Shown here: positions 2 to 17,132 of the stretch, in pieces
Numbering within the stretch: position 1 is the first letter of the stretch
How the letters are laid out: every line of letters starts with the position of its first letter
Source of the DNA: Methanosphaera stadtmanae
Lineage (GTDB): Archaea; Methanobacteriota; Methanobacteria; Methanobacteriales; Methanobacteriaceae
DNA: 43,987 nucleotides
Direction of reading: 5' to 3'
NCBI GenBank assembly: GCA_015062805.1
Contig: SUTQ01000015.1
Coordinates: 12,084-56,070, forward strand
Notes under the pieces: model-generated
The model's database searches: none
Told to the model about the DNA's origin: nothing
The model's input: only the letters and a program-made list of their open reading frames with translations
Translations under genes and position numbers: made by a program

Positions 2-31
2 ATTTCTATCCTATGTTAGTCTGATTATAAC
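2..31 (-). CRISPR. Leader-end CRISPR repeat (array continues left of window)
   Basis: On the minus strand this 30-nt unit starts GTTATAATCAGACTAAC and ends ATAGGATAGAAAT. It closely resembles, from memory, the 30-nt repeats of Methanobacteriales type I-B arrays, which read ATTTCAATCC at one end and GTCTGATTTTAAC at the other. The 3' end ATAGAAAT corresponds to the 8-nt 5' handle of I-B crRNAs, so the array is transcribed on the minus strand, the same direction as the cas genes. Only one copy is visible and no second full copy follows to the right, so this is the terminal, leader-proximal repeat. Array size and spacers lie outside the window. Confidence 0.8.
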
Positions 32-217: not shown

Positions 218-481
218 TTAAAGTATAAGATCTATTTGAGATTTTTCTATGCCAATTACTTGCCTATCTATAAAATCCTCTGTTTTTGTAGTAAATATAA
301 TTACTGAATCTTCTTCCTCATCTATTATTTCTTTAAGACTTGATTTAATTTCTGTTAATTGACTTTTTGTTACTTCTCCTTCAAATACCGAATTTTGTAT
401 CCAGAATAAGTGTTGTCTCAAGAAGCTTTTTACCTTATTTACTCTATCTACTTTTATATCATAAACTATTATAACATACAT
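218..481 (-). CDS. cas2: CRISPR-associated endonuclease Cas2
   Basis: Cas2 forms the Cas1-Cas2 integrase that inserts new spacers at the leader end of the array. The 87-aa product has the ferredoxin-like Cas2 pattern: an N-terminal strand MYVIIVYDI with the conserved Asp at residue 8, then WIQNSVFEG near residues 27-35, which matches the family motif QxSVFEG. I chose the ATG at 481 because GGTGGTGA lies just before it; an upstream in-frame TTG at 493 would overlap cas1 and sit on the Shine-Dalgarno itself. The gene starts 2 nt after cas1 and is the last cas gene before the leader. Confidence 0.93.
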   Translation of the reverse strand: MYVIIVYDIKVDRVNKVKSFLRQHLFWIQNSVFEGEVTKSQLTEIKSSLKEIIDEEEDSVIIFTTKTEDFIDRQVIGIEKSQIDLIL

Positions 482-483
482 CT

Positions 484-1452
484 TCACCACCAAATTGTAA
501 ACGGTTCATACGATTTTTCATTTAATAAATGTTTTTTAAGCTTATATGCTTCCAGACGAATTAATCTTTGATAAGAAACTTTTCGCCCTAAATCCTTGTG
601 TTTTATAGTTTTCTGAAGTCTTTTGTTATATTCATCTATAAATTTGTTTCTTCCCTTTTTGTTTAGTAAACATGAATTTAGATCTTTTTCAAAGTGTTTT
701 TCTGTAATCATCCGTTTATTAACTAAATAAAAGATTAATCTATCTACTATAAATGGTTTGAATATTTCACTTAAGTCCAATGATAATGAGTACCTTCTTT
801 CAAATGGTTCATGTAAATAGGAAATTGTTGGATTTAATTGTGTGTTATACAGTTCTGAAAGTACTGTTGCATACATCATAGAATTTCCAAAGCTTATTAA
901 TGAATTAACCATGTTTTTAGGAGGTTGTCTTGTTCTTGATTCCATTTGAAAGTTTTCAGGTAATATTTCATCAAATTTCTGATAGTATTCGGCTCTTATT
1001 CTACCTTCGACATTCATTATTTCATTGATTGTTTTAGTTTGAGGCAATTCTTTCAAAGTTGTTTTTATGTTGCTTTCTATTTTGTAATAAGATAATACTT
1101 TTAAAATGTTTAAAGCAGAACCCTTTACGAAAAGTTTTGCCAGTTCTAAACGTTTATGGTTTTTTATATAATGTTCACTTTGTTTTATAGTTAAATCACC
1201 AGATATCAACGTTTCTCTGGGATAATATGTTCCATTATAGTATCCATAGTAATTGAAGAAATGAATGGGAATTCCATATTTTGTGAATAAATTTAACACT
1301 TGTGATGATACTGTTATTTGACCATAAGCATATACAGAATATATTTTATTTATTGGTATTGGCTTTTTTCCATTTTTATTAATAAAATAAACCGTATTCT
1401 CATTTCGTTTAAGAATTCCGTCTGATGATAAATAGAAGTTTTTACGATTCAT
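484..1452 (-). CDS. cas1: CRISPR-associated integrase Cas1
   Basis: Cas1 is the catalytic subunit of the spacer-integration complex. The 322-aa product is normal length for the I-B Cas1 family. The all-beta N-terminal domain (about 1-80) is followed by the alpha-helical catalytic domain. The metal ligands are visible: Glu149 in NVEGRIRAEYY, His214 in ISYLHEPFERR, and Asp226/Glu229 in LDLSEIFKP. It sits between cas4 and cas2 on the same strand, with 9 nt to cas4, as an adaptation module cas4-cas1-cas2. Nothing suggests inactivation. Confidence 0.95.
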   Translation of the reverse strand: MNRKNFYLSSDGILKRNENTVYFINKNGKKPIPINKIYSVYAYGQITVSSQVLNLFTKYGIPIHFFNYYGYYNGTYYPRETLISGDLTIKQSEHYIKNHKRLELAKLFVKGSALNILKVLSYYKIESNIKTTLKELPQTKTINEIMNVEGRIRAEYYQKFDEILPENFQMESRTRQPPKNMVNSLISFGNSMMYATVLSELYNTQLNPTISYLHEPFERRYSLSLDLSEIFKPFIVDRLIFYLVNKRMITEKHFEKDLNSCLLNKKGRNKFIDEYNKRLQKTIKHKDLGRKVSYQRLIRLEAYKLKKHLLNEKSYEPFTIWW

Positions 1453-1461
1453 AATTTTTCC

Positions 1462-1962
1462 TCATATAAAGCAAAATTCATAGTAAGCACATTTATAGCA
1501 TTTTTTTGTTTTAACGGGTTTAGGCATGCTTTTATCAACTATTTCTTTTATTTTAGTAATAATATCCTTCATCTCTTTTTTATTTTCATCCGTTAATTCA
1601 ATCTTTTTTGTTTGTCTTATTGTTGGATAATTTAGGATTCCAATGATGTTTTTAAAATCCTTATATTTTTGTAGATAATACATGTAATACAACAATTGAT
1701 ATTTATGAGCTAATTCCATACTATTGCTCTTCTTTACTTCATGAATTTCATAAATATCTCCGTTTTTCCTGATGAAATCCACAGCAATTAAATTGTCAAT
1801 CAACAGTTCATCATCACGTTTATATGATTCTTCATGTAACTTTCGACCTATTCTAACATTATCTGATTCATTTTCTAATTGAACATCATGAGAAAATAAC
1901 CATAATTTGGTTTTGCAAATGAAATAATAATTTATCATGGATCCATTAACTTCTTTTGGCAT
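1462..1962 (-). CDS. cas4: CRISPR-associated exonuclease Cas4
   Basis: Cas4 is a RecB-family Fe-S nuclease that trims prespacers and helps select the PAM during adaptation. A single Cys in NYYFICKTKLW (residue 16 from the chosen start) and three C-terminal Cys in CYKCAYYEFC give the 4Fe-4S signature. The RecB nuclease core shows in VDFIRKNGDIYEIHEVKKS, with the metal-binding Asp and the catalytic E-x-K. I prefer the ATG at 1962 because TTGTGAT precedes it and it lies 4 nt after the cas3 stop; starting at 1998 would add 12 residues and overlap cas3. The product is then 166 aa. Confidence 0.92.
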   Translation of the reverse strand: MPKEVNGSMINYYFICKTKLWLFSHDVQLENESDNVRIGRKLHEESYKRDDELLIDNLIAVDFIRKNGDIYEIHEVKKSNSMELAHKYQLLYYMYYLQKYKDFKNIIGILNYPTIRQTKKIELTDENKKEMKDIITKIKEIVDKSMPKPVKTKKCYKCAYYEFCFI

Positions 1963-1966
1963 ACTA

Positions 1967-4204
1967 TCACAAGATTTCCGTTTCATCTTCACTTTCATAA
2001 TTGTTTAATCTTAATCCAACCTCCGAATCATAGGGAACATTAACAAATATAGTGTCCTTTTCATATTCTATGTTATTCTTACTTTTTTGAATTGAATACT
2101 GTTTATTACTTATATTCAATGTATAAACCATTGCTTCAAAGTATTTCTTCTCATCCACCAAATCACAATATTCTGTAATAAATTCATATGGAACAACTTC
2201 AACCGAATCAAACAATTCATAAAAACCGTTATTTGATTTATCGTTGATAAAAGGAACTAAATAATTGTAAACTTCATTAAAACTATTTGTAACATCATCA
2301 AATATTTTCTGATCTTCTTCATTATATCCATCACAATATACTTCATCCAATAATTCCTGAATAGTACTTTCATACAAAATGTCAACATTTTTAAGGGAAC
2401 TTATGGTCTTTTCTATATGACTGGCATCATATATTAAATCATCATATTTAGAACCAATTGTACAGACATTTGCAGTTTTTATAATTCTTTCTTCCCATCC
2501 TTTACGATTTACTCTGCCAAAGCGTTGAATTAAAGCATCAAAAGGAGCTGGTTGTGAATATAAAACATCATAACTAATATCCAATGAAACTTCAATGGCT
2601 TGAGTACCTACCAGCAAATCAAGATTGTCTAATTTCGACTCGATAATTTGTCTGTCCCTTAATATAAATCGGCTATGCAATAAAGCACTGTTTTCCACGT
2701 TTAACATTTCATAGATTTTCTGTGAATCTTCAACAGTATTACATACTATTAAGACTTTTTTACCATCACTTAAGTCATTGAAAATGTTTTCAATAAAATC
2801 AAAGATACTACCTTCCAAAACATTTACTTTATGTCTAGTATACTTGTCTAATTCCTTTTTAGGTAATGAAATAATATTATCAATTCCCAATTTTTCACTA
2901 AAGAGATCTAGGATAAATGAGGGTAATGTAGCAGACATGATTAATATCGTTACTTTATATTGATTATGCAAAACTTTCAGTATTGATAATATCAAAGCAG
3001 TTGTACGTGAATCATAGGCATGAATTTCATCAAAAATCACCAGGCTGCCTGTCATTTCACTTAATCCCATTTCAAAACCTTTCACTCCAAAGAAATATTT
3101 GATAATTTGGAAAGGAGTTAAAACTTTATATGGCTTATAAATCTTTTTAGTTACATTTTTCAATTCCTTTACATATTTCTTTTTATCTTCATAAGAGCCT
3201 TCACTTAACTGTTTATATAAGAAATAAGAAGAATTTCCATGTAACATACCAACTAATTCTTCACTGAATTCATTCTGAAAACGTTTATACATTGCATTGA
3301 TACTGGCCGTAAAGGGTAACACATAAAATAATCTTTTCGAATACTGTTCATTTTGATTATTCAAAGCCCATAACAATGCTGCTTCTGTTTTACCAGAACC
3401 CGTTGGTGCAATTAAAAAAGTGCTCCCGGTAGTTTTTGATGCAGTTTCCTGTGTAGAACGTAAATGATCCTTAATATTTTCATAAGAATTAAATGTTTTT
3501 GAAGCATGCAAGATATAATAAATTCCTGCAGATGCCAAGTGATCACAAGTTGTTAGAAATCCCTTCAGAAAAAAACCATACAAAGATAAGATAGGATGAG
3601 GATTTTCTTCCATACTTGATTGGTAATCATCCATCATATTCAAATATTCACCAACACTTTCAACAAAAACCGGTTTAATCTCATTGATACTAATATTGTT
3701 AGGTTTTTTTAACTCATGACCTAAATACAACTTACTGAATACAGGTAAATAATCAAAATAGGTATTTAATTCACCGATATTTTCTTGAAGAGTAGCCACT
3801 TTTTGATAAAAAATATCATATTCATTTGAAGAAGGCTTGTAAAAACCGGAATATCTCTCATCCAAAACTTGAATATCCTTATGGTGCGTGATAATTCCAA
3901 GGGCAATAGCGAATGTGGAATAATCATCAATAAATCTTAATGACCTTACAAAAGAAGCTGAAATTACTTCATGCCTATAATTCCAGTATTTTTCTTTAGA
4001 TTCATGTTTTAAAATTTTCTGAAATTCAACTGAAGCCTTACCGAAATCATGCAAAAATAAGGAATAAAAAAGGATATCCCAAAAATTATCAATACCACAT
4101 ATTTGTGGAACTTCGGGATAAGCTTCTTTAATACTTTTTAAAACTCTCAAAGTATTTTCGGTATGTTCCAATAAAGACTCATCTTCTTTGGCTAAAATAA
4201 CCAT
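1967..4204 (-). CDS. cas3: CRISPR-associated nuclease-helicase Cas3
   Basis: Cas3 is recruited by Cascade to unwind and degrade target DNA. The 745-aa product is an HD-helicase fusion. HD domain (about 1-230): His14, His52-Asp53 in LHDFGK, His78, HHKD near 107, and CDHLAS near 220. SF2 helicase: Walker A APTGSGKT at 266-273, DEIH at 392-395, SAT in MSATLP near 424, and motif VI QRFGRVNRKG near 560. All key residues are present. The ATG at 4204 is preceded by GGTGA; an earlier in-frame start at 4243 would overlap cas5. It lies between cas5 and cas4 in the operon. Confidence 0.95.
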   Translation of the reverse strand: MVILAKEDESLLEHTENTLRVLKSIKEAYPEVPQICGIDNFWDILFYSLFLHDFGKASVEFQKILKHESKEKYWNYRHEVISASFVRSLRFIDDYSTFAIALGIITHHKDIQVLDERYSGFYKPSSNEYDIFYQKVATLQENIGELNTYFDYLPVFSKLYLGHELKKPNNISINEIKPVFVESVGEYLNMMDDYQSSMEENPHPILSLYGFFLKGFLTTCDHLASAGIYYILHASKTFNSYENIKDHLRSTQETASKTTGSTFLIAPTGSGKTEAALLWALNNQNEQYSKRLFYVLPFTASINAMYKRFQNEFSEELVGMLHGNSSYFLYKQLSEGSYEDKKKYVKELKNVTKKIYKPYKVLTPFQIIKYFFGVKGFEMGLSEMTGSLVIFDEIHAYDSRTTALILSILKVLHNQYKVTILIMSATLPSFILDLFSEKLGIDNIISLPKKELDKYTRHKVNVLEGSIFDFIENIFNDLSDGKKVLIVCNTVEDSQKIYEMLNVENSALLHSRFILRDRQIIESKLDNLDLLVGTQAIEVSLDISYDVLYSQPAPFDALIQRFGRVNRKGWEERIIKTANVCTIGSKYDDLIYDASHIEKTISSLKNVDILYESTIQELLDEVYCDGYNEEDQKIFDDVTNSFNEVYNYLVPFINDKSNNGFYELFDSVEVVPYEFITEYCDLVDEKKYFEAMVYTLNISNKQYSIQKSKNNIEYEKDTIFVNVPYDSEVGLRLNNYESEDETEIL

Positions 4205-4208
4205 AAAC

Positions 4209-4826
4209 TCACCATAACCATATGCCCTTATCCAATTCTTCATCGTAGTGACATTCTTCAGAATAATTATAATAATTATCCATCAAAATAAATGGCTTCG
4301 TTTGAGCTGTTTTTCTAGGAACATCTTCTGTAAAGGAAATTGGTAATGCCTGCAAGATACCATAGGCTCCTTCTGTTCCAAATGGCAATATTGTCTTTCC
4401 AAGCTTAACATTTGATTTTTTTGACAAATCAACTGTATCAATGCATTTTATCATTGCTAAATCAGAGGATCTGCCTAACAGAACATGGTAATATGGTGAT
4501 TCAAAATATTTTCTAAATTCCAAATCATTAACATACAGGTACATTTTGGGATTAACCAAAAATTCCCTTTTAATTATATTTGATTTATTTCCCGATAATG
4601 ATTTTATTTCATAAATCTGTTCCAAATCTACAGCTTTTGATTCGTAATCAAAAATGAAACCTACAGTCAAATCATCTGGTTTAACTATTTCTCCTTTTAT
4701 TGAAGATAACAATCCATAAATTGTACTTAAAGGAGGAACAGGAAGTGTTGGTTGAAAACCACTTACAAAAGCAGGGTATCTGAATGAAGCGGTCCAACCT
4801 TCAATCAGTACTCTTAAAAATTTCAT
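4209..4826 (-). CDS. cas5: Cascade subunit Cas5 (I-B type)
   Basis: Cas5 is the Cascade RAMP subunit that caps the 5' handle of the crRNA and contacts Cas8. The 205-aa product starts with the Cas5 beta-strand MKFLRVLIEGWTASFR and has the family PPLSTIYGLL motif near residues 31-40. It is at the short end for the family but colinear. The ATG is 1 nt after the cas7 stop, so translation is probably coupled. Assignment to the Cst/Tneap branch rests on the cas7 and cas8 neighbours. Confidence 0.9.
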   Translation of the reverse strand: MKFLRVLIEGWTASFRYPAFVSGFQPTLPVPPLSTIYGLLSSIKGEIVKPDDLTVGFIFDYESKAVDLEQIYEIKSLSGNKSNIIKREFLVNPKMYLYVNDLEFRKYFESPYYHVLLGRSSDLAMIKCIDTVDLSKKSNVKLGKTILPFGTEGAYGILQALPISFTEDVPRKTAQTKPFILMDNYYNYSEECHYDEELDKGIWLW

Positions 4827-4827
4827 T

Positions 4828-5814
4828 TTAAATCAACTCATCAATTTTAGATGTAAATTTATCCGTTATTTCCTTGATTGTTCCAAATTCTATATTTTCA
4901 CTTTCCTTTGCAAATTCTTCAAGTTCTTCATAAATATTTGATAAGAATCCTTTTCTCATACCAATATATACTTTCGAAGTTAATTTATCGTCATAATCGG
5001 ATAATACTTCTTTTAACGCGTTTAAATCAAATATTAATTCATTTTCTTCTTCACGTACTATGTTCATGAAAATATTATTTCCCGTTGATATTGACGTTAA
5101 TAGGACCAACTTCGGTGATACATCAGTTAAATGAGATGTATTTTTTGCTCCACCAGCCAAATAAGGAATAGCGTTAATCACATCCGAAGCACGTTTTACA
5201 CGTTCTTCATTAGATAATTTACAAGAGGTCTCATCCTGTTCCAATCCTTCGGATTCTGCAAATTCTATTAACTTAGGATACATGTTACGATATCCTGTTT
5301 TTTCAATTTTTGAAAAGTTACCTAGTGAATCCAAATCTAATGCAAAAATACCTTTAAATACTGTTGAATAAAATTCATGTTCAAATGGGACTGGATCACC
5401 TTCTTGTCTAGCCATAACACCAAAATCATTTGTTGGATACTGACCAACTATTGAAATTAAAGGTGAATTTTTTAACGGGGAAATTCTTGTTACTGTTCCC
5501 CCTTCTTTTGCTTTGAGTGCTCTCATATAACCAAATACATCATCATCGGGATATTTTATTGGATTAGCTTCCGTAAATGCTATCTTCTTTTCTCTTATTA
5601 TTGGAGATAATTCCCAGTTAAACTGTTTTTGAAGAGTATCTCTCCACCAGTATCTTAATGCTTGTCCTGATACATAAGGATATACCTTTCCGTTTTTTCT
5701 TATTGATTTGACTCTCACTATATTGTCAGTTCTATCTCCTGCATCACTACCCGCATTGTTTAATGCTGAATGTGGAGCATCCATTAACATAAATCCTATT
5801 ATATTTTTATCCAT
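4828..5814 (-). CDS. cas7: Cascade backbone subunit Cas7 (Cst2/DevR family)
   Basis: Cas7 polymerises along the crRNA guide to form the Cascade backbone. The 328-aa product shows the Cst2/DevR N-terminal pattern: SALNNAGSDAGDRTDNIVR (about 16-34) followed by VYPYVSGQALRYWWRDTL (about 43-60), typical of autoregulator-family Cas7 proteins in subtype I-B. A later GAKNTSHLTDVSPKLVLL fits the thumb region. The start is preceded by GGTGATAAT. It lies 11 nt after cas8 and 1 nt before cas5. Confidence 0.93.
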   Translation of the reverse strand: MDKNIIGFMLMDAPHSALNNAGSDAGDRTDNIVRVKSIRKNGKVYPYVSGQALRYWWRDTLQKQFNWELSPIIREKKIAFTEANPIKYPDDDVFGYMRALKAKEGGTVTRISPLKNSPLISIVGQYPTNDFGVMARQEGDPVPFEHEFYSTVFKGIFALDLDSLGNFSKIEKTGYRNMYPKLIEFAESEGLEQDETSCKLSNEERVKRASDVINAIPYLAGGAKNTSHLTDVSPKLVLLTSISTGNNIFMNIVREEENELIFDLNALKEVLSDYDDKLTSKVYIGMRKGFLSNIYEELEEFAKESENIEFGTIKEITDKFTSKIDELI

Positions 5815-5825
5815 ATTATCACCAT

Positions 5826-7133
5826 TTACTTATTGTCTATTAACCATTCACTTAAATTCTCATATAATCTAAAAAGTATTAAATCGCGTGTTTCTTTCCA
5901 AACTTTGTAGTCCGGACAAATATAATTTACAAAATCATCAAAAGTACATAATAATTCTTTATCACCTTTTTCCACCTTACTTTTCATGATTTTACGCAGA
6001 ATATTTGTGAAATTTCCATAGGTACTTGCTTGTTCAATATCTGTCAATACTTTTTTATCATCGTATTTAACGATATATTCACTCAAGGAATCACCTAATT
6101 TACGAATTGCTTCTATACGGTTGTCACTCATATTTTCAACCTCACCCAGGTAATATTTTAATAATTCCCATGAACAGAATGTTTTTTTATTCTTTACATC
6201 AAACAGATAATGTAAGATTGATTTTCCATTCAAAAGATTTTCATAAATTCTATTTTTCTTGTTTTTATATTTTTCCTCTTCCTCATCCTTTTTAATATTG
6301 ACGTATTGACGTCTAATAATATATTTCCAATTATTTTCTTCAGTTGAAGGTATGTAAGTCAAAAAATTAAAGACATTGTTTGGAAAAGAATATAAATCCA
6401 ATTCTGCACCCTGATTATAATTTGTAAAGTAATAAAAATTTAATGAAGGATTAATGTTATCCCAATGTTTTCTATCATATGTTTTAATCATTTTCTCTAT
6501 TATATGAAAGATTCCATTTACCGGATTTTGATATTCTTCATTAAAACAACCAACATAATCTCCACTGGAAACTTGTTTATTGTAATTTTTTATTGATTCA
6601 ATACTCCAATATTTCATTACTTTTTCTGAATCCGAGTGGAACAATATAAACTTACCGCCTGAACGATATAATACCAAAGGCATAAACTGGATTAACAGTA
6701 CACATAATGGACAATAGTCTGCACCCTCTTTTGCATATGAAAAGAAGTTTTTGAAACTTACAGAACCTGTTAATGGAACATCCCGTTTAACATGTTCTTT
6801 AATTGAATCTCTTCTTCCACAACCAATGCATGTACCATTGTCTGTTGTATCATTTATTGAATTAAACAACTTGTCTAACTCTTCAGGATATAGCTCTTGT
6901 TTTTTATCCTTATAGACATTATTCGTTAATATGCTATTGGGAAATATACTGAACATATTCTTATTCCATGCGGGTGTTAAATAAAGTTCAGAAATTAACT
7001 TTATACCCTCATGTAAATGATTGAATGTCATATCATTGATTTTAGTCTCTTTACACACCAACATATTCAATGCATAAATTCCCGAATCAATAAAAGGATT
7101 TCCTGTAATATGTAAATCTAATTTTTCAGACAT
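5826..7133 (-). CDS. cas8: Cascade large subunit Cas8 (Cst1, CxxC-CxxC type)
   Basis: Cas8 is the large Cascade subunit responsible for PAM recognition and Cas3 recruitment. The 435-aa product carries the two CxxC pairs that define the Cst1 family: C102-IG-C105 and C141-PL-C144, probably a zinc site. The segment PLTGSVSFKNFF between them is typical. Outside this core the family is very divergent, so the call also rests on position between cas6 and cas7. AGGTTGAT precedes the ATG. This large subunit makes the system the Tneap-like branch of I-B. Confidence 0.9.
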   Translation of the reverse strand: MSEKLDLHITGNPFIDSGIYALNMLVCKETKINDMTFNHLHEGIKLISELYLTPAWNKNMFSIFPNSILTNNVYKDKKQELYPEELDKLFNSINDTTDNGTCIGCGRRDSIKEHVKRDVPLTGSVSFKNFFSYAKEGADYCPLCVLLIQFMPLVLYRSGGKFILFHSDSEKVMKYWSIESIKNYNKQVSSGDYVGCFNEEYQNPVNGIFHIIEKMIKTYDRKHWDNINPSLNFYYFTNYNQGAELDLYSFPNNVFNFLTYIPSTEENNWKYIIRRQYVNIKKDEEEEKYKNKKNRIYENLLNGKSILHYLFDVKNKKTFCSWELLKYYLGEVENMSDNRIEAIRKLGDSLSEYIVKYDDKKVLTDIEQASTYGNFTNILRKIMKSKVEKGDKELLCTFDDFVNYICPDYKVWKETRDLILFRLYENLSEWLIDNK

Positions 7134-7142
7134 ATAATCAAC

Positions 7143-7874
7143 CTAATGATAAATATCAACTAAACCAAAACCTTGACTGTTTTTACTGGATATTCCACAG
7201 TCATATGCAAATTTTATTAAATCAACATCACCATCCAATACGAGATCCATATTGTATGCTCTGTGATATGTTGTGTTTTCACCTTTGTTGATAGTTATTC
7301 TTTTTCGTTTGACTGACTTCATATTTGAGTATACATTAATAGTTTTATCAGTACTTTCTAAATTATTGAATTTTAAATACTTTTTTATCAGGTTATTTTC
7401 AATACCTCTATAAAATTCTTCTGATGGTGCCAAATCCCATTCACGTAGCTTTCCATCAACTTCTCTTTTAGTGGTTACTATAATGGGAGATAATGTTATA
7501 AATTCCATTTTTGAAGAAAACTTGGGTTGTTTTATAATTTCACATTTTACAATTTTCAGTATTTGACCTATGAAATTGATTTCAGATTGGTTTATTATTC
7601 CATTGACCAGTTCTGTAATTAATCTGTCATCAGGACTGGAAATAATAAAACTTATTTTACCGTTTTTTGAAATGAATCCTCCATCAATCATTTTACGTTG
7701 AGATATATTGATTCTGCTAAAGCAAAAATATTTAAAAGTTGATTTAGCGTGTAATTTATTTGCATAATCAATATCTTCCATTAATCCATAGATTATTGAT
7801 GAAAGAATATGATTATAATTAAATGGAACATTTATTATGCCATTTTCGTTTGTTAAATATAATTTTAAACGCAT
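7143..7874 (-). CDS. cas6: CRISPR RNA endoribonuclease Cas6
   Basis: Cas6 cuts the pre-crRNA within each repeat, leaving the 8-nt 5' handle. The 243-aa product has the two-RAMP layout. His42 in KLHAKSTFKYFCFS is at the usual place of the catalytic His, and the C-terminal glycine-rich loop GISSKNSQGFG is at 227-237. The ATG at 7874 is preceded by AGTGGT; an in-frame GTG at 7883 lies within that Shine-Dalgarno. It is the first gene of the operon, and the same Cas6 would be expected to act on the mini-CRISPR RNA encoded just upstream. Confidence 0.92.
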   Translation of the reverse strand: MRLKLYLTNENGIINVPFNYNHILSSIIYGLMEDIDYANKLHAKSTFKYFCFSRINISQRKMIDGGFISKNGKISFIISSPDDRLITELVNGIINQSEINFIGQILKIVKCEIIKQPKFSSKMEFITLSPIIVTTKREVDGKLREWDLAPSEEFYRGIENNLIKKYLKFNNLESTDKTINVYSNMKSVKRKRITINKGENTTYHRAYNMDLVLDGDVDLIKFAYDCGISSKNSQGFGLVDIYH

Positions 7875-7946: not shown

Positions 7947-7968
7947 TTTATAAATAATCTTATATTGG
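7947..7968 (-). promoter_or_regulatory. cas operon promoter with putative self-targeting site
   Basis: On the minus strand TTTATAAA (7954-7947) is a good archaeal TATA box about 75 nt before the cas6 start. The run 7965-7948, overlapping the TATA box and the expected TFB site, matches the guide of the mini-CRISPR RNA (8026-8009) at 17 of 18 positions. The three bases before it on the same strand are CCA (7968-7966), a PAM accepted by characterised I-B systems such as that of Clostridioides difficile. A second AT-rich stretch near 7920-7932 could be an alternative TATA box. Confidence 0.6.
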
Positions 7969-7978
7969 ATAATAAAAC

Positions 7979-8056
7979 ATAAAAAAAATTAAACCTAAAG
8001 TAGGCTGATTATAAATAATCATATATTTTTCTATTCTTAAAAAGTCTGATTAGTAA
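7979..8056 (-). ncRNA. Degenerate mini-CRISPR RNA (CreR-like)
   Basis: Two repeat-like units are oriented like the real repeat. The first (8056-8027) keeps TAATCAGACT and the handle-like end ATAGAAAA and matches 20 of 30 bases. The second (8015-7986) keeps TTATAATCAG and TAGG and also matches 20 of 30, but has lost the handle. Only 11 nt separate them, so the guide would run into the second unit. A run of eight T (8,7988-7981 on the minus strand) follows as a likely terminator. Known CreA/CreR RNAs of type I systems use such pseudo-repeats to turn Cascade into a repressor. The function here is inferred; the sequence pattern is direct. Confidence 0.7.
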
Positions 8057-8075: not shown

Positions 8076-8090
8076 TTTATATATAACTCT
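8076..8090 (-). promoter_or_regulatory. TATA box of the mini-CRISPR RNA
   Basis: The minus strand reads GAGTTATATATAAAT here, a strong archaeal TATA box with a purine-rich BRE-like stretch before it. Its centre is about 25 nt upstream of the first repeat-like unit, so transcription should begin at about 8055, right at the start of that unit. The spacing is what makes the downstream unit look like a real transcription unit. Confidence 0.55.
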
Positions 8091-8449: not shown

Positions 8450-9454
8450 TTAATTTCTCAAAAAAGATTCGATTTCTTGATAAATATCTGATTCATATGT
8501 GTCCTTTCCAAAATATTCTTTGGTACAATATTGTACATTTTCATTAGAATTTCTTTTAATAATGTTAGAATCAGTTACATTATTAACATTTAAACAATTA
8601 ACCGTATACTTAATTAATTCCATTGAATCATTTATATCTTTTCTATCATGCAAATATAAGTAAAGTTTATTGTTTTCAATATAATATTTAACCATATAAT
8701 TAGTTGTATTAATTAAATCTGCTTCTTTGAGACTTAATTGTATTTTCAGATATTCCTCTTTAAAAAATATTTCAAATAATATCTTATTATTTAATATGTA
8801 TTCTACACATCCTTTTTCACGTTTAATTTTAATTTTATTATCGTAGTTTATTATTTCATTTTCCAATATTTCATAGATTATTTGTACTTTAGAACTTATT
8901 TTATCTCCATTTAAATTAACATTTTCAAAATCTTCTACAACAAATGTTATCATTTGATCTAAATTAATTTCTGATAAATTCACAGGCTTTTTGTTTACAT
9001 AAACTCTTATATGATAGAACAATAAGCTTTTTTGAATGTGATTAATTATTTTATTACTTTTACGTTTATATCCATAAGTATCTAAAAGAGTTCTTAGTTT
9101 TTTTCTTGAATACGACCTATTTTCTAGTATTCTATCTAATCTAATTGTCATTAAATAATAATCAACTAGTTCTTCTTCAGAAAGGCTATTTTCATAACTT
9201 AAACCTAATTGTTCATAATCCTTTTTAACCATTCTCTCTTCATTCAAATATTCTTCAGAATCTATTAAATATTCAATTACTTCCTGAATATCCAATTTGA
9301 AAATTTTTTTATCATTTTTATATTTAGGATGTATGAAAGTAAAATCAATTTCATACAACATATCAATTACTTTAAATTGTTTTTCTATAGAATCGTTTTT
9401 ATCAATAAAGTAATATGCCATTACTTCAGGAGTATAATAATTCAATATTACCAC
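8450..9454 (-). CDS. Unknown 334-aa protein (possible DUF5655-like C-terminus)
   Basis: I do not recognise this protein with confidence. It is 334 aa, soluble, rich in Lys, Glu, Ile and Asn. The last third (about 205-300) has alternating strands, with EYILNNKILFEIFFKEEYLKI followed by a second strand pair, resembling DUF5655 domains, which often occur at the end of restriction or DNA-binding proteins. The GTG start overlaps the end of the helicase-HNH gene by 7 nt, with GTGAT as Shine-Dalgarno, so the two were probably cotranslated. The frame is intact although both genes upstream in the cluster are broken. Confidence 0.55.
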   Translation of the reverse strand: MVILNYYTPEVMAYYFIDKNDSIEKQFKVIDMLYEIDFTFIHPKYKNDKKIFKLDIQEVIEYLIDSEEYLNEERMVKKDYEQLGLSYENSLSEEELVDYYLMTIRLDRILENRSYSRKKLRTLLDTYGYKRKSNKIINHIQKSLLFYHIRVYVNKKPVNLSEINLDQMITFVVEDFENVNLNGDKISSKVQIIYEILENEIINYDNKIKIKREKGCVEYILNNKILFEIFFKEEYLKIQLSLKEADLINTTNYMVKYYIENNKLYLYLHDRKDINDSMELIKYTVNCLNVNNVTDSNIIKRNSNENVQYCTKEYFGKDTYESDIYQEIESFLRN

Positions 9455-11727
9455 TTATCACTTTTTTTACTATTACATAATGAACAAAGTAATTGAAGAT
9501 TATCAGGGATACTTAAACCCTTTTTATTTAACGGTCGTATATGATCAACTTCAAAATCTATCCTATTCTTACTTTTTAAATGAGATTTTTGACATACATA
9601 ATAGCCATCCTTATCTAAAGCTTTTTCATATGTTCCATCTCTTAATTCTTTCTCATATTCCCTATCATATTTTTTGATTTCAAAAAGACTTAACTTTAGA
9701 ATATCTCCATTTGGGTTAGGTTTCATATGAATATTAATATCATAATCTTCAGGATTTAAAAGTTTGTCTATTTCGATTGTAACTTGTTCTCTAAAGAATT
9801 TTTTACGACTAGCATAGAATATATTAATTAAATTATCTTCTGACTCCCAAATAGAATCCAAATATTCTTTCTTTTCAAAGTCTGACAAACCCTTTTTAAG
9901 TATTTCTACTGCAATACTACTAACATCCAATTCCTCTTTATTAAAGTCAAATTCATGGAATAAAGGTTTTTGTTCTTTTTGTGCATAGAATTTTAATAAC
10001 GCCATGATATCTTTGTAATTATATGGTGGAATCATTTCACCAGTAAAAAATACTTCCTGACATTTTTCTTCTAAGATACTTAGTTGTTCATTAGTCAAAT
10101 ATTCATCAGTTACCCCATATCGTTCAAACAATGCCCCAATCTCATTTAACATGTTCTCATAAGCATCTTTTGTACTGTCATATATTAGAATTTGGTGTGA
10201 AACATTATTACAATCATCAAACTCATCAGATTCCAAATATTTAAACGTATACATTCCAATTGGAATTCTTTCAACAAATGGAATACATTGAAGTTTCTCT
10301 GAATCTATACTGCCATCCAATATACGTGCAAATTCTTCTATTTTGTTCAATGAAATTACTTGCAAATCATATTGCTGATTATTAGTTTTCTTATCTACAA
10401 AATCATTTATTTCATCTCTAAATAGATTGCTAACTGGTTCCCATTGAACTTGATTGTTCCAATTATCAATAAATGAAACAATATACGCTACTTTAGTTCC
10501 ACCTTCTGTTTTTGGTCCCCTTTATGCACGACCAACCATTTGAGTCATTAAAATGTTTGATATTGTAGGTCGTGTTAAGAAAACTGTCTGTATTTGTGGA
10601 ATATCAGAACCTTCACTCAATATATTTACATTAATAAGAACATCTAATTCATCATTCTTAAATTTGTTTATAATCTTATTATTATCACGTTTCGTATTTC
10701 TACCAACATCTTCCACATCTCCAGAAATGACAAAATCCACTCGTATTCCCTCATCTTCAAATAAAGTATTTAATTGATTAGCTTGAGGTCTACTAATTGC
10801 AAAAATAAGTGTCTTACCGTACTTATCCTTATTTTCAAGGTAGTGTTCCATTATCATCCTATTTCTCGTAGCATTTTCTGCTAATTCCTTTTCAATCTCT
10901 GGGGGAAGATATCCCGTTCTATTTATTGTATTTAAATCATCAACACCCAATGTACCTTCAAATTGGAAATCTGTTTTGGGTTCAACAGGTATTGGTTTTG
11001 CAAGATAATTCTTTTTAATTAGTTCAGATAACCCAATTTCATAACAGATACCTAGAGTATGTTCATCATGAACAGGTATATTATTAACTATACTGTCATT
11101 AAATATATTGGTTAATAATCCTTCTTCTTCCTTAATTGTTCTGATAGGTGTTGCCGTAAGACCAATAATCTTAAGACTTTTTATTCTGGATCCGATATAA
11201 TCTATAATTCTTCTATAGCTTTTAGCTGTAGAATGATGAGCTTCATCAATTACCAAAAACAGTTCATTTTCACCATCCAACCAGTCACCAAGTGCTTCCA
11301 TATTTCTTATAAGACTATCCTTGCTAGCGATTATAACATCATCCTTTGCTTCAATATCACCCACACGGTCATGTTTTGGATGATTACCTGATATAATCCT
11401 ATAATAATATTTACTCCTATTTGGTAGATAGGTCAACAGAGAGTTCCTATCAAAGCCTTGTAAAGCTTGATCAAGAAGCATCTGTCTGTGAGCAATCCAC
11501 AATACTTTAATTTTTTTATCAATGGCATTTGTTAAAAGCCAACTGGTAGCTGTAAATGTTTTTCCACCACCAGTAGGAAGAACAACAAGAGTACTAAAAG
11601 AATCTTGTTTATTCATTATATCTAGATTTTTTTTAGCATCATTTTGAAAATAATATGGTTGATTCAATGGCTTTCCTTGACCTACTTCAAAGAATCCATT
11701 TCCAGTTTCAGTAAATTTTTTGTTCAT
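9448..11727 (-). pseudogene. DEAH-box helicase with HNH domain, split by in-frame TAA
   Basis: The frame runs 760 codons with one in-frame TAA at codon 402 (10522-10524). Before it is an SF2 helicase core: LPTGGGKT, VIDEAHH, GLTATP, ending in QMVGRA. After it the same frame continues RGPKTEGGTKVAYIVSFID, then ends in an HNH nuclease, FEVDHIRPL with LLCSLCNSKK. The normal motif would read QMVGRALRG, so TTA (Leu) to TAA is likely. The stop falls inside motif VI and cuts off the arginine finger. The C-terminal part has no start signal of its own. GTGAT precedes the ATG at 11727. Readthrough or a sequence error remain possible. Confidence 0.85.
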
Positions 11728-11796
11728 TATATCACTCTTTGTAAAATAATCATAAACAATATTATAAATTAGATATTTAAAAGTATGTTAAATGTA

Positions 11797-13544
11797 TTAC
11801 AATCCTTCAAAATATTCCCTAATACTCTTTGCTATGAGTTTTCTACGTTCTACTAAGAATTCATCATAATCCATATTCCAGAATTCATATGGTAAGTCAT
11901 ATCGCTCAGAATAGTTATCTTCCAATTCATTTCTTTCATTTTCATTAATTAAATCAAGCATCATTGGCCAATAATCTCCTGGTGCCTTATCGCTTATTTT
12001 AATATTATCCCTATATTCAATATAAATCATATTTGCTTGCTGATTATATTGTGTCTGGTTTAATCCCCGTTTTTTAAGGTAGTTTTGTGGGAATATGTGA
12101 TGCTTGTCTATGGATTTTTTAGGTGATTTAATATCGGGCCTTAGTTGATCCCTCAGCTTTGTATGTGAAAACAGTATATTATCATCTTTATAAACCAATG
12201 ATGCATTGTAAACCTTATATGCATAGTTGTACATACTAGTTACCATGCTCCTCTGAGGCAAAGTGATATTCCAAAAGTCATTTGTTATCTCATTGTTCAT
12301 TATGTTACTTAATGTTTCAACGTATTTTTCAGAGTTTTTAATCCGAATTAAATCCTGTTCAATTATAGATTCTGGCGAACCTGAATATCTTTGCGTTAGT
12401 TGACTAAATACAAACCATTTACTAATTACACTGTTCAATTCATAACTGTTTACATCAAAGGTAAGTTTACCTATTAAATACAGTGCATAAGTAACATAAA
12501 ACCCAACTTCTGAACTAATCAAGTCTTTATAATTAATAAAGCCAATACTGCTAATTAATGTTATGTAATCCTGCCAATAAACAAGATTAAGAACATCTTC
12601 CAAAGCTTTTTTAAATATATCAAGGTTTTGATTCCTTAATTCTTTAGTTGTTGTACGATTTTCAAAATCCCTGCCCTTAAGAATCAGATAAGCATACTTA
12701 AGTCTTCCACGATAAAAAGCATATGCTACAGCACTACGCAACAGATGTTCTGGATTAGGTAATGCATTAATTCTATTATATGGTGAGGAGTGACCATCAA
12801 TGCTTGGCACTTTACACCCTTTACTGAATTCCTCTAAAGCAACTCGACCCTCATCATAATAAATACTTAACAAGGTTAAAATGAAATCAGATTGATTTAA
12901 GACCTTCCCTTGGAATTTATACGGACAAATATCTCAGAAACCTCTTCAGGATCTAAATCACTAGACAATTCTAACACACTGAAAGGATAATGTTTAATAT
13001 CTGCAATCCTATCAATATTCTCCTCAATCAAGTCTTCATCAATATCCATTTCAGGCTTCTTGTCATACAATGATTTAATATATTCTCTTCTTACATTACG
13101 TTTATCCATGAAAATATCTGTGATGTTATTTATCCATTCAACATCCTTTTCCTTACTGGAATTAACGACATCAATTTCTTCCGTTAAAGGATTAAAACAT
13201 ATACGAGGCAATCTTTTTTTATAATTTTTATCCAGAACTTCCTTTCCGGTGAATATTGTGAATAATGAAGTCAGTCTCTGTTGACCGTCAATTACAAGAC
13301 GACTGGGTGTGGTTGATTTATCAAAACCAATAGGCTTAAATTCACTTCCATCACCAACTTTCCACAAAATAATTAAACCAGCAGGTAATCCCTTATATAA
13401 AGAATCAATCAAATCTCTTATTTGAGTGTCTTTCCAAACAAAAGGACGCTGCAAATCAGGTAAAGCTATGGTACCCGAATCCACTTCACTTATTAAATTT
13501 GTTAACTCATAACTAGTATTATTAAAAACTACACCATTACTCAT
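11797..13544 (-). pseudogene. DUF262/DUF1524 (GmrSD-like) nuclease, frameshifted
   Basis: This is a two-domain protein of the type IV restriction-like GmrSD family. The DUF262 half has LPDLQRPFVWK near residue 35 and the DGQQRLTSL motif near 87-95 and runs to VRINSKGRS, where a stop appears at 12897-12899. A different frame continues directly with LNQSDFILTLLSIYYDEGR and goes on to the DUF1524 nuclease motif DKHHIFPQNYLKK. Restoring one T in the run near 12899-12901 rejoins about 582 residues. GTGAT precedes the ATG at 13544. It lies 69 nt upstream of the helicase-HNH gene on the same strand. Confidence 0.85.
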
Positions 13545-13946
13545 TTGAATCACTATAAAATCTTAAATATAAATTTATTATTTTTAGATAATAAAATCTT
13601 TTAAAGAAATTATCATTTTTTTTATTATAAATAAAATCTTTTACTACAAGACTAAGAAGATTCAGATTTTTCTGATATGTTATGACAATACGAAATTTAT
13701 CTGTTTTTACAGTCTATAAAAGAAAAATCAAAGCTAATCACAATTATGATGAAATTTCCCTAGTTTTACAACAATTCTTGGAAAAACCTTAATTAAAAAA
13801 GATTAAAACACGAAAAGAAATATTAATTTATTCAATTATAAAATGTTAGAATGGACTTATAAAAAGAAAAAGACTGTTTAAACCCATAAAAATTTACGAC
13901 CTCTTTTATGATTGTTTTTTATTATTTCCAACAATATTAAATATCC
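13545..13946. other. Divergent intergenic region
   Basis: This 400-nt region separates the minus-strand DUF262 gene from the plus-strand helicase-nuclease. It must hold promoters for both. Apart from the diverged repeat at 13790-13903 I see no coding frame and no strong hairpin. Confidence 0.5.
13790..13903 (+). repeat. Diverged non-coding repeat, copy 1
   Basis: This stretch aligns by eye over about 115 nt with 18061-18178. The best-kept parts are TAATTAAAAAA at the start, AGAAAAAGA at 13864-13872, and ATTTACGACCTC against ATTTACCATCTC at the end. Each copy lies about 85-90 nt upstream of a plus-strand gene. Origin (mobile remnant, duplicated promoter region or RNA) is unknown. Confidence 0.5.
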
Positions 13947-13958: not shown

Positions 13959-13991
13959 CTATTTTTAATACAGTTAATGTGGTAGATGGTA

Positions 13992-16900
13992 ATGTTACAA
14001 ACTCCTGATGAAAAACAAGACAAAGCTATATATTACCCATTGGACCCCGTATTGATAGAAGCAGGTCCTGGTGCCGGTAAAACGTATGTATTGATAAAAA
14101 GAATTGAATATCTGTTGAAAACCAAAATGATAAATCCTGAAAGTTTATTGGTAATTACATTTACCATTAAGGCTGCTGATGAGCTGAAGAAACGTTTAAG
14201 TTCACCGGAATATGACATATCTTCTGAAGACTTGAGTAAAATGTTTATTGGAACTATTCATAGTTTCTGTAACCATCTTCTAAGTGAATATTCAATGAAT
14301 GATATCCAACTGTTGGAAAGTGAGGATATCAACGAACGTAAAGTCCTATTTTTACAAAAAAACTATGAAAATCTGGGTTTCACTGGATACAATTTTATTG
14401 AAAAATGGGAAATTGATACAATAATTAAAAAATACGACCAATTCACCAATTTTGGTCTAAAGGATGATGAACTGGCAGATTATCTTGAAACAAACTACAA
14501 AATATCTGAAGATTATAAGAACTTTGTGAACGATTATATGGATAACTATAAAGTATTTCCTAAAGATAATATGAAGGATAATGACGATTATTATAATTCA
14601 TGGTATTTTGCCAAGTTTATTGCATTGGTCAAATCCTATAAGATATACGAAAAACTGTTGAAAGAGAATAATTTGTCTGATTTTGCCTTTTTACAGGTTT
14701 ATGCTAAAGAGCTTTTATCCAATGATGATGAACATATAGCAAAGCTTCTTCCATATAAGAACATATTGATAGATGAATTCCAGGATATTGATCCCATTCA
14801 GAAAGACATTTTTGAAATATTGCAGAAATACTCCGATTCCTTTACTGTTGTAGGAGATGATGATCAGTCAATATATGGATTCAGAGGTAGCTTTTCTGAT
14901 AACTTCGATGATTTTGGCAAAAGGAATAACAGAATTAAACTTGATATTAATCATCGTTCAGGAAAAAATATCATAGATTTTAATGAACACTTTATTAGGA
15001 AATATCGTAAAAATGAGAAAAATCTCATACCTAAACAGAAACCTATTGAATCTAACGTGTATTATATGGTAAGTGAGAAGGCTGATTCAATTTCAAATCC
15101 TGAAGCAAAAAATATTGCATTGATTATCAAATCCTTAAAGGATGAGAATATAATTAATAATTATTCTGATATTGGTGTATTATTCAGGGGTATTCAATCA
15201 TTTGGAAATCTTAAAAAACCTATAATGGCTATTTTAGATAAATTTGAGGAGTATGCCATTCCATACAATATACATAATGCTTCACCATTGACTGATAAAA
15301 AAGAAGTAAGAATCATGATGACCCTTTTATGGTACATGAAAAAAACATCACCTCGAACATATTACACTAAAACAGAAAGAGAATGGTTGAATTTAAGAGT
15401 ATTTTCAGAATTGAAGGACTGCTTGAATCTTAATGAAGAAACCTGTAAAATATTGTCTGACATTGAAGATAAGTTTGAGGAGGATGTTATTGAAGCAGAG
15501 CTTAATCATGAGAATGGATTGTATAGAAATAGAGCTAAAAATTTACAAGTAATGTATGATAGATACCATAAAGAAAGAGCTACTGCTTTGTTTAATGAAA
15601 TATTGAATAGTGTTCCACATTTCCAGTTAAATGAAAAAAGCAGAACCGATTTAATGGACATTGGCATAACCGATGAACACAATCTGGATTTCTTCGAAAG
15701 GCTATACAAGTATAGGAAAGAATATTATGAAAGTTCAGAAGAAGAACGTGATTCATTACTGACCGTTTATTATAAACTATTGGACATATCGGGATTGTTA
15801 AAGGGAAGATTTGTTGAGAGCAACAATAAGAATGACAGAATATTAAATAATCTGGCAATATTTACCCAAACAATATCAAATTACATGGAACTTATGGATG
15901 AAAATGATTTGAATGGATTGATAGGATTTATTTTATCAAACTACGACAGCTATTCAAGCCATAATGAAAAAACTGGTCTGGAGGATGAAGTTCAATTATT
16001 AACTATTCATAAGGCTAAAGGATTGGAATTTCCTGTGGTGATAGTTTGCTCGTTAGAAAATAATGATTTTCCGTTTAAAGAAATTACCAAAGAATCATTG
16101 GATGAGTTATCCAATAGCGAGCGTGGACGTCCATCATATCCTATTAAACCGGATTTCTTCAAATATAAAAATTATGATGAGGAAAGGGAAATTGAACTTG
16201 AAGATCTTGAAGAAAAACACATATTCTATGTTGCCTGTACACGGGCTGAACAGCTGCTGATATTATCAACAGTACTTGACAAGGAAGGAAACAAACCAGA
16301 ATTCATTGAAGAAATGGAAGAAAACACACCACTATCCGAAATATCCTCAAATGAATTCAGTAATATCAATAAATTAATAACCAAGAAAGAAGACGAAAAA
16401 ACAGAAAGAGTTAAAATGAGTTACACCAGCTTTTCAGCATACAACAAATGTCCTCGAAAGTATAATATCGGTTACAATTACCAGTTCAGGCTTCCTGTTT
16501 CAAAGGTAATAACTGACGGATTGGCTGCACATACAATACTGGAACGAATGAATAAAGAGGTTCTACAGGGAAAAGATATACAAACAGAAGACATTTCCAG
16601 AATATCTGATGAAGTATTAGAAAATTACCCGGAAATTGAAGAGGAAACATTTAAAAATGCAATAAGTGGAATAAACAAATACTGGAATGATTATTCAGCT
16701 AGCCAATGGGAAGTGATTGGCTCTGAAGTTCCATTTAAGATTATTAAAGAAAACTATGACATAGAAGGAAAAATTGATTTAATACTTAAAAATTCCAATA
16801 CAAATGAAATTAAAATTGTAGATTATAAAACTACCAATCAGGAAAAATTAAAGGCCAGGAAGAAAACTCATGAAGAACAATTATGTATATATGCCAAAGC

Positions 16901-17132
16901 ATTAGAAAATTATCCAGAATACAACCAGTATGACATCAGATATGCCAGTGTATATAGCTTATATGATAATTATGAACTGAAAATAGATTTAACGAAAGAA
17001 AAAATAGAGCAAGTAAACGATTCATTAAATCAAACTGTAGAAAACATTTTGAATAAGGAATATTCTAAAATCAACGAGGAACATTGTGAATATTGTCCTT
17101 ATTATGACATTCTCTGTAAACATAATAAATGA
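13992..17132 (+). CDS. UvrD-family helicase fused to a RecB-like Fe-S nuclease
   Basis: The 1046-aa product is a single-chain helicase-nuclease of the AddA/RecB type, probably for DNA end processing or defence. SF1A motifs: TPDEKQDKAI (Q motif), Walker A AGPGAGKT at 24-31, IDEFQD, GDDDQSIYGFRGS, TIHKAKGLEF and YVACTRAEQL. The C-terminal PD-(D/E)xK nuclease (about 808-1046) has GLAAHTILER, GKIDLI, VDYKT with Asp944 and Lys946, and EEQLCIY. Cys820, Cys1032, Cys1035 and Cys1042 form an AddB/Cas4-like Fe-S site. GTGGT favours the second ATG (13992) over 13986. No AddB-like partner is visible. Confidence 0.85.
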   Translation: MLQTPDEKQDKAIYYPLDPVLIEAGPGAGKTYVLIKRIEYLLKTKMINPESLLVITFTIKAADELKKRLSSPEYDISSEDLSKMFIGTIHSFCNHLLSEYSMNDIQLLESEDINERKVLFLQKNYENLGFTGYNFIEKWEIDTIIKKYDQFTNFGLKDDELADYLETNYKISEDYKNFVNDYMDNYKVFPKDNMKDNDDYYNSWYFAKFIALVKSYKIYEKLLKENNLSDFAFLQVYAKELLSNDDEHIAKLLPYKNILIDEFQDIDPIQKDIFEILQKYSDSFTVVGDDDQSIYGFRGSFSDNFDDFGKRNNRIKLDINHRSGKNIIDFNEHFIRKYRKNEKNLIPKQKPIESNVYYMVSEKADSISNPEAKNIALIIKSLKDENIINNYSDIGVLFRGIQSFGNLKKPIMAILDKFEEYAIPYNIHNASPLTDKKEVRIMMTLLWYMKKTSPRTYYTKTEREWLNLRVFSELKDCLNLNEETCKILSDIEDKFEEDVIEAELNHENGLYRNRAKNLQVMYDRYHKERATALFNEILNSVPHFQLNEKSRTDLMDIGITDEHNLDFFERLYKYRKEYYESSEEERDSLLTVYYKLLDISGLLKGRFVESNNKNDRILNNLAIFTQTISNYMELMDENDLNGLIGFILSNYDSYSSHNEKTGLEDEVQLLTIHKAKGLEFPVVIVCSLENNDFPFKEITKESLDELSNSERGRPSYPIKPDFFKYKNYDEEREIELEDLEEKHIFYVACTRAEQLLILSTVLDKEGNKPEFIEEMEENTPLSEISSNEFSNINKLITKKEDEKTERVKMSYTSFSAYNKCPRKYNIGYNYQFRLPVSKVITDGLAAHTILERMNKEVLQGKDIQTEDISRISDEVLENYPEIEEETFKNAISGINKYWNDYSASQWEVIGSEVPFKIIKENYDIEGKIDLILKNSNTNEIKIVDYKTTNQEKLKARKKTHEEQLCIYAKALENYPEYNQYDIRYASVYSLYDNYELKIDLTKEKIEQVNDSLNQTVENILNKEYSKINEEHCEYCPYYDILCKHNK

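Follow-up and report, generated by a model that had tools for sequence, protein, structure and literature searches.

The 43,987-nt stretch of Methanosphaera stadtmanae DNA analyzed here (the 44-kb window) contains a two-repeat degenerate mini-CRISPR with an 11-nt pseudo-spacer, upstream of an intact type I-B1 cas operon. Does the RNA of this small element act on the operon beside it? The evidence presented below leads us to regard the element as very probably a CreR, that is, a cas-regulating RNA gene that lowers the synthesis of its own Cascade.

Genomic setting and anatomy of the mini-CRISPR

The I-B1 system is complete, comprising cas6, cas8b1/cst1, cas7, cas5, cas3, cas4, cas1, cas2, and an array (Table 1) of at least 94 near-identical repeats with spacers of 32 to 41 nt that begins at the window edge, just past cas2, in a genome of 2.1 Mb. 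ATG 7874 is a better placement of the cas6 start than GTG 7883, since it lines up with the starts in two relatives. Adjoining the cas operon, positions 8450-13553 hold a run of likely defense genes (an unknown 334-aa protein, an HNH endonuclease, a ResIII/DEAD helicase, an unknown 358-aa protein, and a GmrSD N-domain protein), and positions 13986-17132 encode a UvrD-type helicase of 1048 aa with a PD-(D/E)XK nuclease domain (AddA-like).

Table 1. Features of the mini-CRISPR, the cas promoter, and the cas operon, in window coordinates
Feature	Position	Strand	Remarks
TATA-like TATATATAA, candidate mini-CRISPR promoter	8077..8085	minus	~26 nt upstream of psiR1; seen by sequence inspection
psiR1, first degenerate repeat TTACTAATCAGACTTTTTAAGAATAGAAAA	8027..8056	minus	20/30 identical to array repeat GTTATAATCAGACTAACATAGGATAGAAAT
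crRNA 5' handle ATAGAAAA	8034-8027	minus	last 8 nt of psiR1
Guide stretch ATATATGATTATTTATAA	8009..8026	minus	matches promoter 17/18
Pseudo-spacer ATATATGATTA, 11 nt	8016..8026	minus	guide positions 1-11; between psiR1 and psiR2; repeat spacing 41 nt
psiR2, second degenerate repeat TTTATAATCAGCCTACTTTAGGTTTAATTT	7986..8015	minus	20/30 identical to array repeat; guide positions 12-18 fall on its first 7 nt
T8 run, likely terminator	7981..7988	minus	between mini-CRISPR and cas promoter; T9 in L041
PAM CCA preceding target	7966..7968	minus	CCA also precedes the viral protospacer that host spacer 4 matches 36/37
Target (protospacer-like) ATATAAGATTATTTATAA in cas6 promoter	7948..7965	minus	mismatch to guide at position 6 only; identical in L041
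TATA-like TTTATAAA of cas operon promoter	7947..7954	minus	overlapped by target; sequence inspection
cas6, first operon gene	7143..7874	minus	ATG at 7874; TIGR01877, 2.2e-40
cas8b1/cst1, cas7, cas5, cas3, cas4, cas1, cas2 (rest of operon)	218..7133	minus	NCBIfam matches
First repeat of host CRISPR array	2..31	minus	array runs on beyond window

The mini-CRISPR is linked to the cas genes, its two degenerate repeats lying 110 to 185 nt before cas6. The stem of psiR1 has changed from the array's CTA/TAG to CTT/AAG in a compensated manner, and psiR2 retains CTA/TAG and has gained one extra C-G pair. The handle in psiR2 is poor (TTTAATTT), so that 3' processing of the RNA is uncertain. Transcription in archaea terminates at oligo-T, which together with the T9 run of L041 is the basis for reading the T8 run as a likely terminator. 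An Rfam scan of the window gave no match, and the predicted fold of the entire mini-CRISPR does not exceed those of shuffled sequences in stability.

We observe that the 3-bp psiR stem (positions 13-15 with 19-21) is kept through paired changes (CTA/TAG, CTT/AAG, ACA/TGT, and CCA/TGG). In an alignment that takes in arrays of three species, 94.4% of the cells are paired with a covariation of 0.677, a result reached in 0 of 500 shuffles, and every slid register scores low. We argue from this compensated stem that the repeats are maintained as Cas6 substrates and are not decaying, and it lends indirect support to a processed RNA that Cascade would bind; degenerate psiRs are typical of this RNA class (PMC9458426).

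Match between guide and cas promoter

A preliminary description of this locus had proposed that the RNA, read after the handle, pairs with the cas promoter. Letters and coordinates of that match are right, the guide at 8026-8009 agreeing with promoter bases 7965-7948 at 17 of 18 positions with a mismatch at position 6 only. The guide of 18 bases given there does match the promoter; only the first 11 bases (8026-8016) are pseudo-spacer proper, and bases 12-18 belong to psiR2. The proposed overlap with the cas TATA box also appears in the sequence, where the target contains the TATA-like motif, a kind of call that is weak in DNA this AT-rich. The target was placed within 75 to 95 nt of the cas6 ATG, with about 73 nt separating the two, and the limited complementarity between guide seed and promoter comes with a CCA PAM at what is a predicted promoter location. 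A sigma-70 promoter scan was set aside because its outcome has no meaning in an archaeon.

With the guide itself set aside, the runner-up to this target on the two strands of the 44-kb window matches at 15 of 18 positions. Throughout the 2.1-Mb genome there is one other site within one mismatch, which has its mismatch at seed position 1 and is preceded by CTT; the promoter target is thus the genome's only site with at most one mismatch, a CC PAM, and an intact seed. The preliminary description had cautioned that AT-richness raises the frequency of random matches and had called for a shuffle test. Among 200,000 dinucleotide-Markov sequences modeled on this intergenic DNA (504 nt), 138 held a match of at least 17/18 (~7e-4), the share that AT content alone yields, and 2 held one that also had CC at -3/-2 (~1e-5). 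A de novo scan with only the handle, a 10-base seed, and a CC PAM found 3 sites where ~3 were expected, which is chance level; since this short-seed scan does no better than chance, the significance comes from the longer match. Target-like sites elsewhere in the family are likewise chance, being similar to those of a reversed control.

PAM and viral protospacers

Viral protospacers of the host's own spacers give independent information on the PAM. Host spacer 4 matches the IMG/VR contig IMGVR_UViG_3300031760_004771 (L142) at 36 of 37 positions, with position 18 as the sole mismatch, and spacer 69 matches the same contig at 30 of 35 (mismatches at 5, 6, 11, 12, and 27), in both cases after CCA. 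CCA is therefore a natural PAM of this system, in agreement with the earlier suggestion, drawn from other I-B systems, that it works as one here. The two protospacers (2433-2469 and 4610-4644) also make this contig probably a Methanosphaera virus. Related contigs are L145-L147 and L150. Virus contigs akin to the hit gave either nothing new or two weak spacer resemblances (76 to 84%, with CTA and ATT at the PAM places) that we judged uninformative. Of six scans of viral contigs with single spacers, five were without a match, the array produced just one weak match (85%) against phage records, and concatenated spacers yielded only AT-rich noise against 139 family genomes. The I-B1 system of Thermotoga maritima uses a YYD PAM, which covers CCA and CCT, has a seed of positions 1-5 and 7, and is unaffected by a mismatch at position 6 (PMC13199841); by analogy, the position-6 mismatch of the window's guide is probably tolerated, as had been supposed.

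Conservation of guide and target in relatives

A close cas6 is present in 33 of 139 family genomes, and the loci fetched, together with L040, L041, and the window, form a set of 34. L041 is a contig of a MAG labeled Spirochaetaceae, in which it is probably misbinned, and its cas6 is 83% identical to that of the window, which makes it the closest relative. It carries the mini-CRISPR, with PAM and target identical at 21 of 21 positions, the handle at 8 of 8, and the guide at 17 of 18. The sole guide change is T to C at position 6, which is mismatched to the target in both L041 and the window. The flanks have diverged, with identities of 32/59 upstream, 3/13 in the stretch from terminator to PAM, and 51/70 in the cas6 leader. 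L040, a record labeled Methanosphaera stadtmanae SIG25 (cas6 74% identical), has neither guide nor target, which shows that the element is dispensable; many other relatives are without it as well.

A repeat-profile scan of the loci revealed further mini-CRISPR pairs in L082, L084, and L104. The first two come from two other species of the family and have the same architecture with different guides, each fitting its own cas promoter region. In L082, whose genome (1,853,160 bp) is probably that of the Methanobrevibacter smithii type strain, a cultured organism suited to laboratory tests, the pseudo-spacer is 12 nt long. The guide there, AATGAACATATTCTTA, agrees with AATGAACATATACTTA of its own cas6/cas8b intergenic DNA at 15 of 16 positions, with a mismatch only at 12 and a CCT PAM. 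This CreR-like element lies between divergent cas6 and cas8b (L082:3180-3310). L084 has an 11-nt pseudo-spacer, and its guide ATATGGTAGGTATTAT is mismatched to ATATGATAGGTTTTAT within 16 bases only at positions 6 and 12, after a CCA PAM. For each of these two loci, none of 200,000 shuffles gave an equally good off-kink match together with a CC PAM. A look-alike of the L082 guide in L157 was rejected, as it seems to lie in coding DNA without repeats.

When the 34 cas loci were scanned outside arrays without regard to repeats, full matches preceded by a CC PAM came solely from the window, L041, L082, and L084; a fifth full match, in L093, has a TC PAM and looks low-complexity. The co-variation of guide and promoter that had been named as a check is thus borne out, the two being jointly kept in L041, both missing from L040, and paired anew in L082 and L084, which indicates that they are maintained jointly in evolution.

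L104 is a decayed cas6 locus beside a Csh2-type cas7, with a 20-nt pseudo-spacer and a psiR spacing of 50. Its target is weaker (PAM CCT, mismatches at 5, 6, 12, and 18; 0 of 50,000 shuffles with the PAM). Within L104:2400-2800, a perfect ribosome site (GAGGAGGTGA) and a tiny reading frame come directly after the best target (2483-2466, minus strand), and this mini-CRISPR could be part of a CreTA toxin-antitoxin pair in a methanogen. At L098:12745-12815 (minus strand), two half repeats (AATCAGAC) stand 23 nt apart directly before cas6 and are perhaps a decayed mini-CRISPR.

Over guide bases 1-16 of the five guide-target cases, 7 of 8 mismatches fall on position 6 or 12 (nominal binomial 3e-6), or 6 of 7 when the two Methanosphaera loci are counted as one (2e-5); L104 was weighed partly by an off-kink score, which biases the count and, with the few independent loci, makes these figures indicative. 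Judging from these alignments, natural drift confined to the bases that Cascade flips out may be new. Drift limited to every sixth base would be experiment-free, evolutionary evidence that Cascade reads these RNAs, and searches for CreR and CreA elsewhere could use it as a filter.

Alternative explanations and comparison with known systems

The strongest competitor, which we nevertheless consider very improbable, is that the element is a CreA guide of the CreTA type, with a small toxin between target and cas6 as the gene that it represses and control of the cas genes being secondary. CreTA, a type VIII toxin-antitoxin RNA pair known in I-B haloarchaea (PMC9458426), resembles the window's element in its degenerate two-repeat RNA and in the short seed that guides Cascade to a promoter, so that the RNA architecture is identical in kind, and in L104 the best target stands just before a perfect GGAGGTGA ribosome site with its tiny frame. 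The window differs from CreTA in that its target is the cas operon promoter and no toxin gene is recognized: in the window and L041, the ~73 nt from target to ATG show neither a strong ribosome site nor an evident small gene, a search that an RNA toxin without recognizable features would escape. Moreover, the 3' part of this DNA is conserved into the cas6 leader in both.

Less probable still is that the match arose by chance, or that AT-rich DNA beside the remnant of a decayed array was duplicated locally, in either case without function. The intergenic DNA is indeed very AT-rich, an equal match occurs in about 7 of 10,000 shuffles when the PAM is ignored, and the element is missing from many relatives. 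Against this reading, PAM, register, and mismatch position all agree, guide and target are conserved jointly in L041 amid diverged flanks, L082 and L084 show the same geometry with unrelated guides, and the psiR stems are compensated. It is just as improbable that the repeated ATATANGATTATTTATAA, which contains TATA-like TTTATAA and whose two copies stand 61 nt apart, serves as a binding site for a protein (TATA/TFB or repressor) with one copy in each of two promoters, since one copy directly follows the crRNA handle and the other the PAM, the geometry is kept in relatives with unrelated sequences, and L041 and the window vary at position 6 only.

The CreR reading thus remains the one that we favor. 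The idea of a self-repressing guide is already published as the CreR paradigm, of which the window element is a further and unusually clean case, backed by the relatives in other species; the primary paper reportedly appeared in Cell Host and Microbe in 2023. Features in common with CreRs as described are a mini-CRISPR beside a cas operon, degenerate repeats, a partial guide-promoter match with a PAM, and type I-B, whereas the methanogen host, the I-B1 subtype (Cst1), the 11-nt pseudo-spacer, the pairing into psiR2, and the confinement of mismatches to 6 and 12 may set the window element apart. Compared with scaRNA/tracrRNA repression by Cas9, the element differs in that the effector there is of type II and the parts are without homology. 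The likeness is that a crRNA-like RNA redirects a Cas effector, which then represses transcription by way of a shortened match (PMC9458426).

Proposed mechanism

CreRs autorepress I-B, I-E, and V-A systems by partial complementarity to the promoter (PMC13131331, PMC12737573, PMC12948488), the I-B cases being reported in two of these works (PMC13131331; PMC12737573). In the window, the mini-CRISPR would be transcribed from its own promoter up to the T-run, and Cas6 would cut the transcript to a crRNA-like product of ~41 nt made up of the 8-nt handle, the 11-nt pseudo-spacer, and ~22 nt of psiR2. Its 5' end is predicted to read AUAGAAAA-AUAUAUG, i.e., AUAGAAAA-AUAUAUGAUUA, and the L082 counterpart AUUGAAAA-AAUGAACAUAUU. 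Loaded with this product, Cascade would sit on the promoter at the TATA box and block transcription from cas6 to cas2, the 18-bp pairing presumably being too short to recruit Cas3 or the adaptation machinery. We infer repression without cutting from I-B precedent: in Haloarcula, spacers of up to 24 bp repress without interference or priming, and CreA works via an 11-bp promoter match (PMC10989794). Spacers of 16 to 20 bp repressed a coding-region target there only to ~65% (PMC10989794), and repression here might therefore be weak unless the promoter position compensates. Array crRNAs competing for Cascade, or a virus inhibiting Cascade, would ease repression and lead to more Cas protein.

Use of the first bases of psiR2 as guide, seen in the sequence alignments (7 nt in the window, 8 nt in L041, and 4 nt each in L082 and L084), may also be new. 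More tentatively, and with somewhat less than even confidence, we propose for the Methanobacteriaceae that CreR guides have shrunk to a pseudo-spacer of 11 to 12 nt and are completed by the start of the second repeat, of which 4 to 8 nt pair in 4 of 4 close cases. In Methanosphaera, the TTATAA of the repeat would then read the TATA box, making the repeat part of the address, and mismatches whose drift is limited to positions 6 and 12, both flipped out, would record the kinked readout of Cascade. The CreR reading places CRISPR self-repression in gut methanogens, probably with the Methanobrevibacter smithii type strain among them, where CRISPR control has been little studied, and, if true, the repeat as address would show in a new way how short guides of this kind can get.
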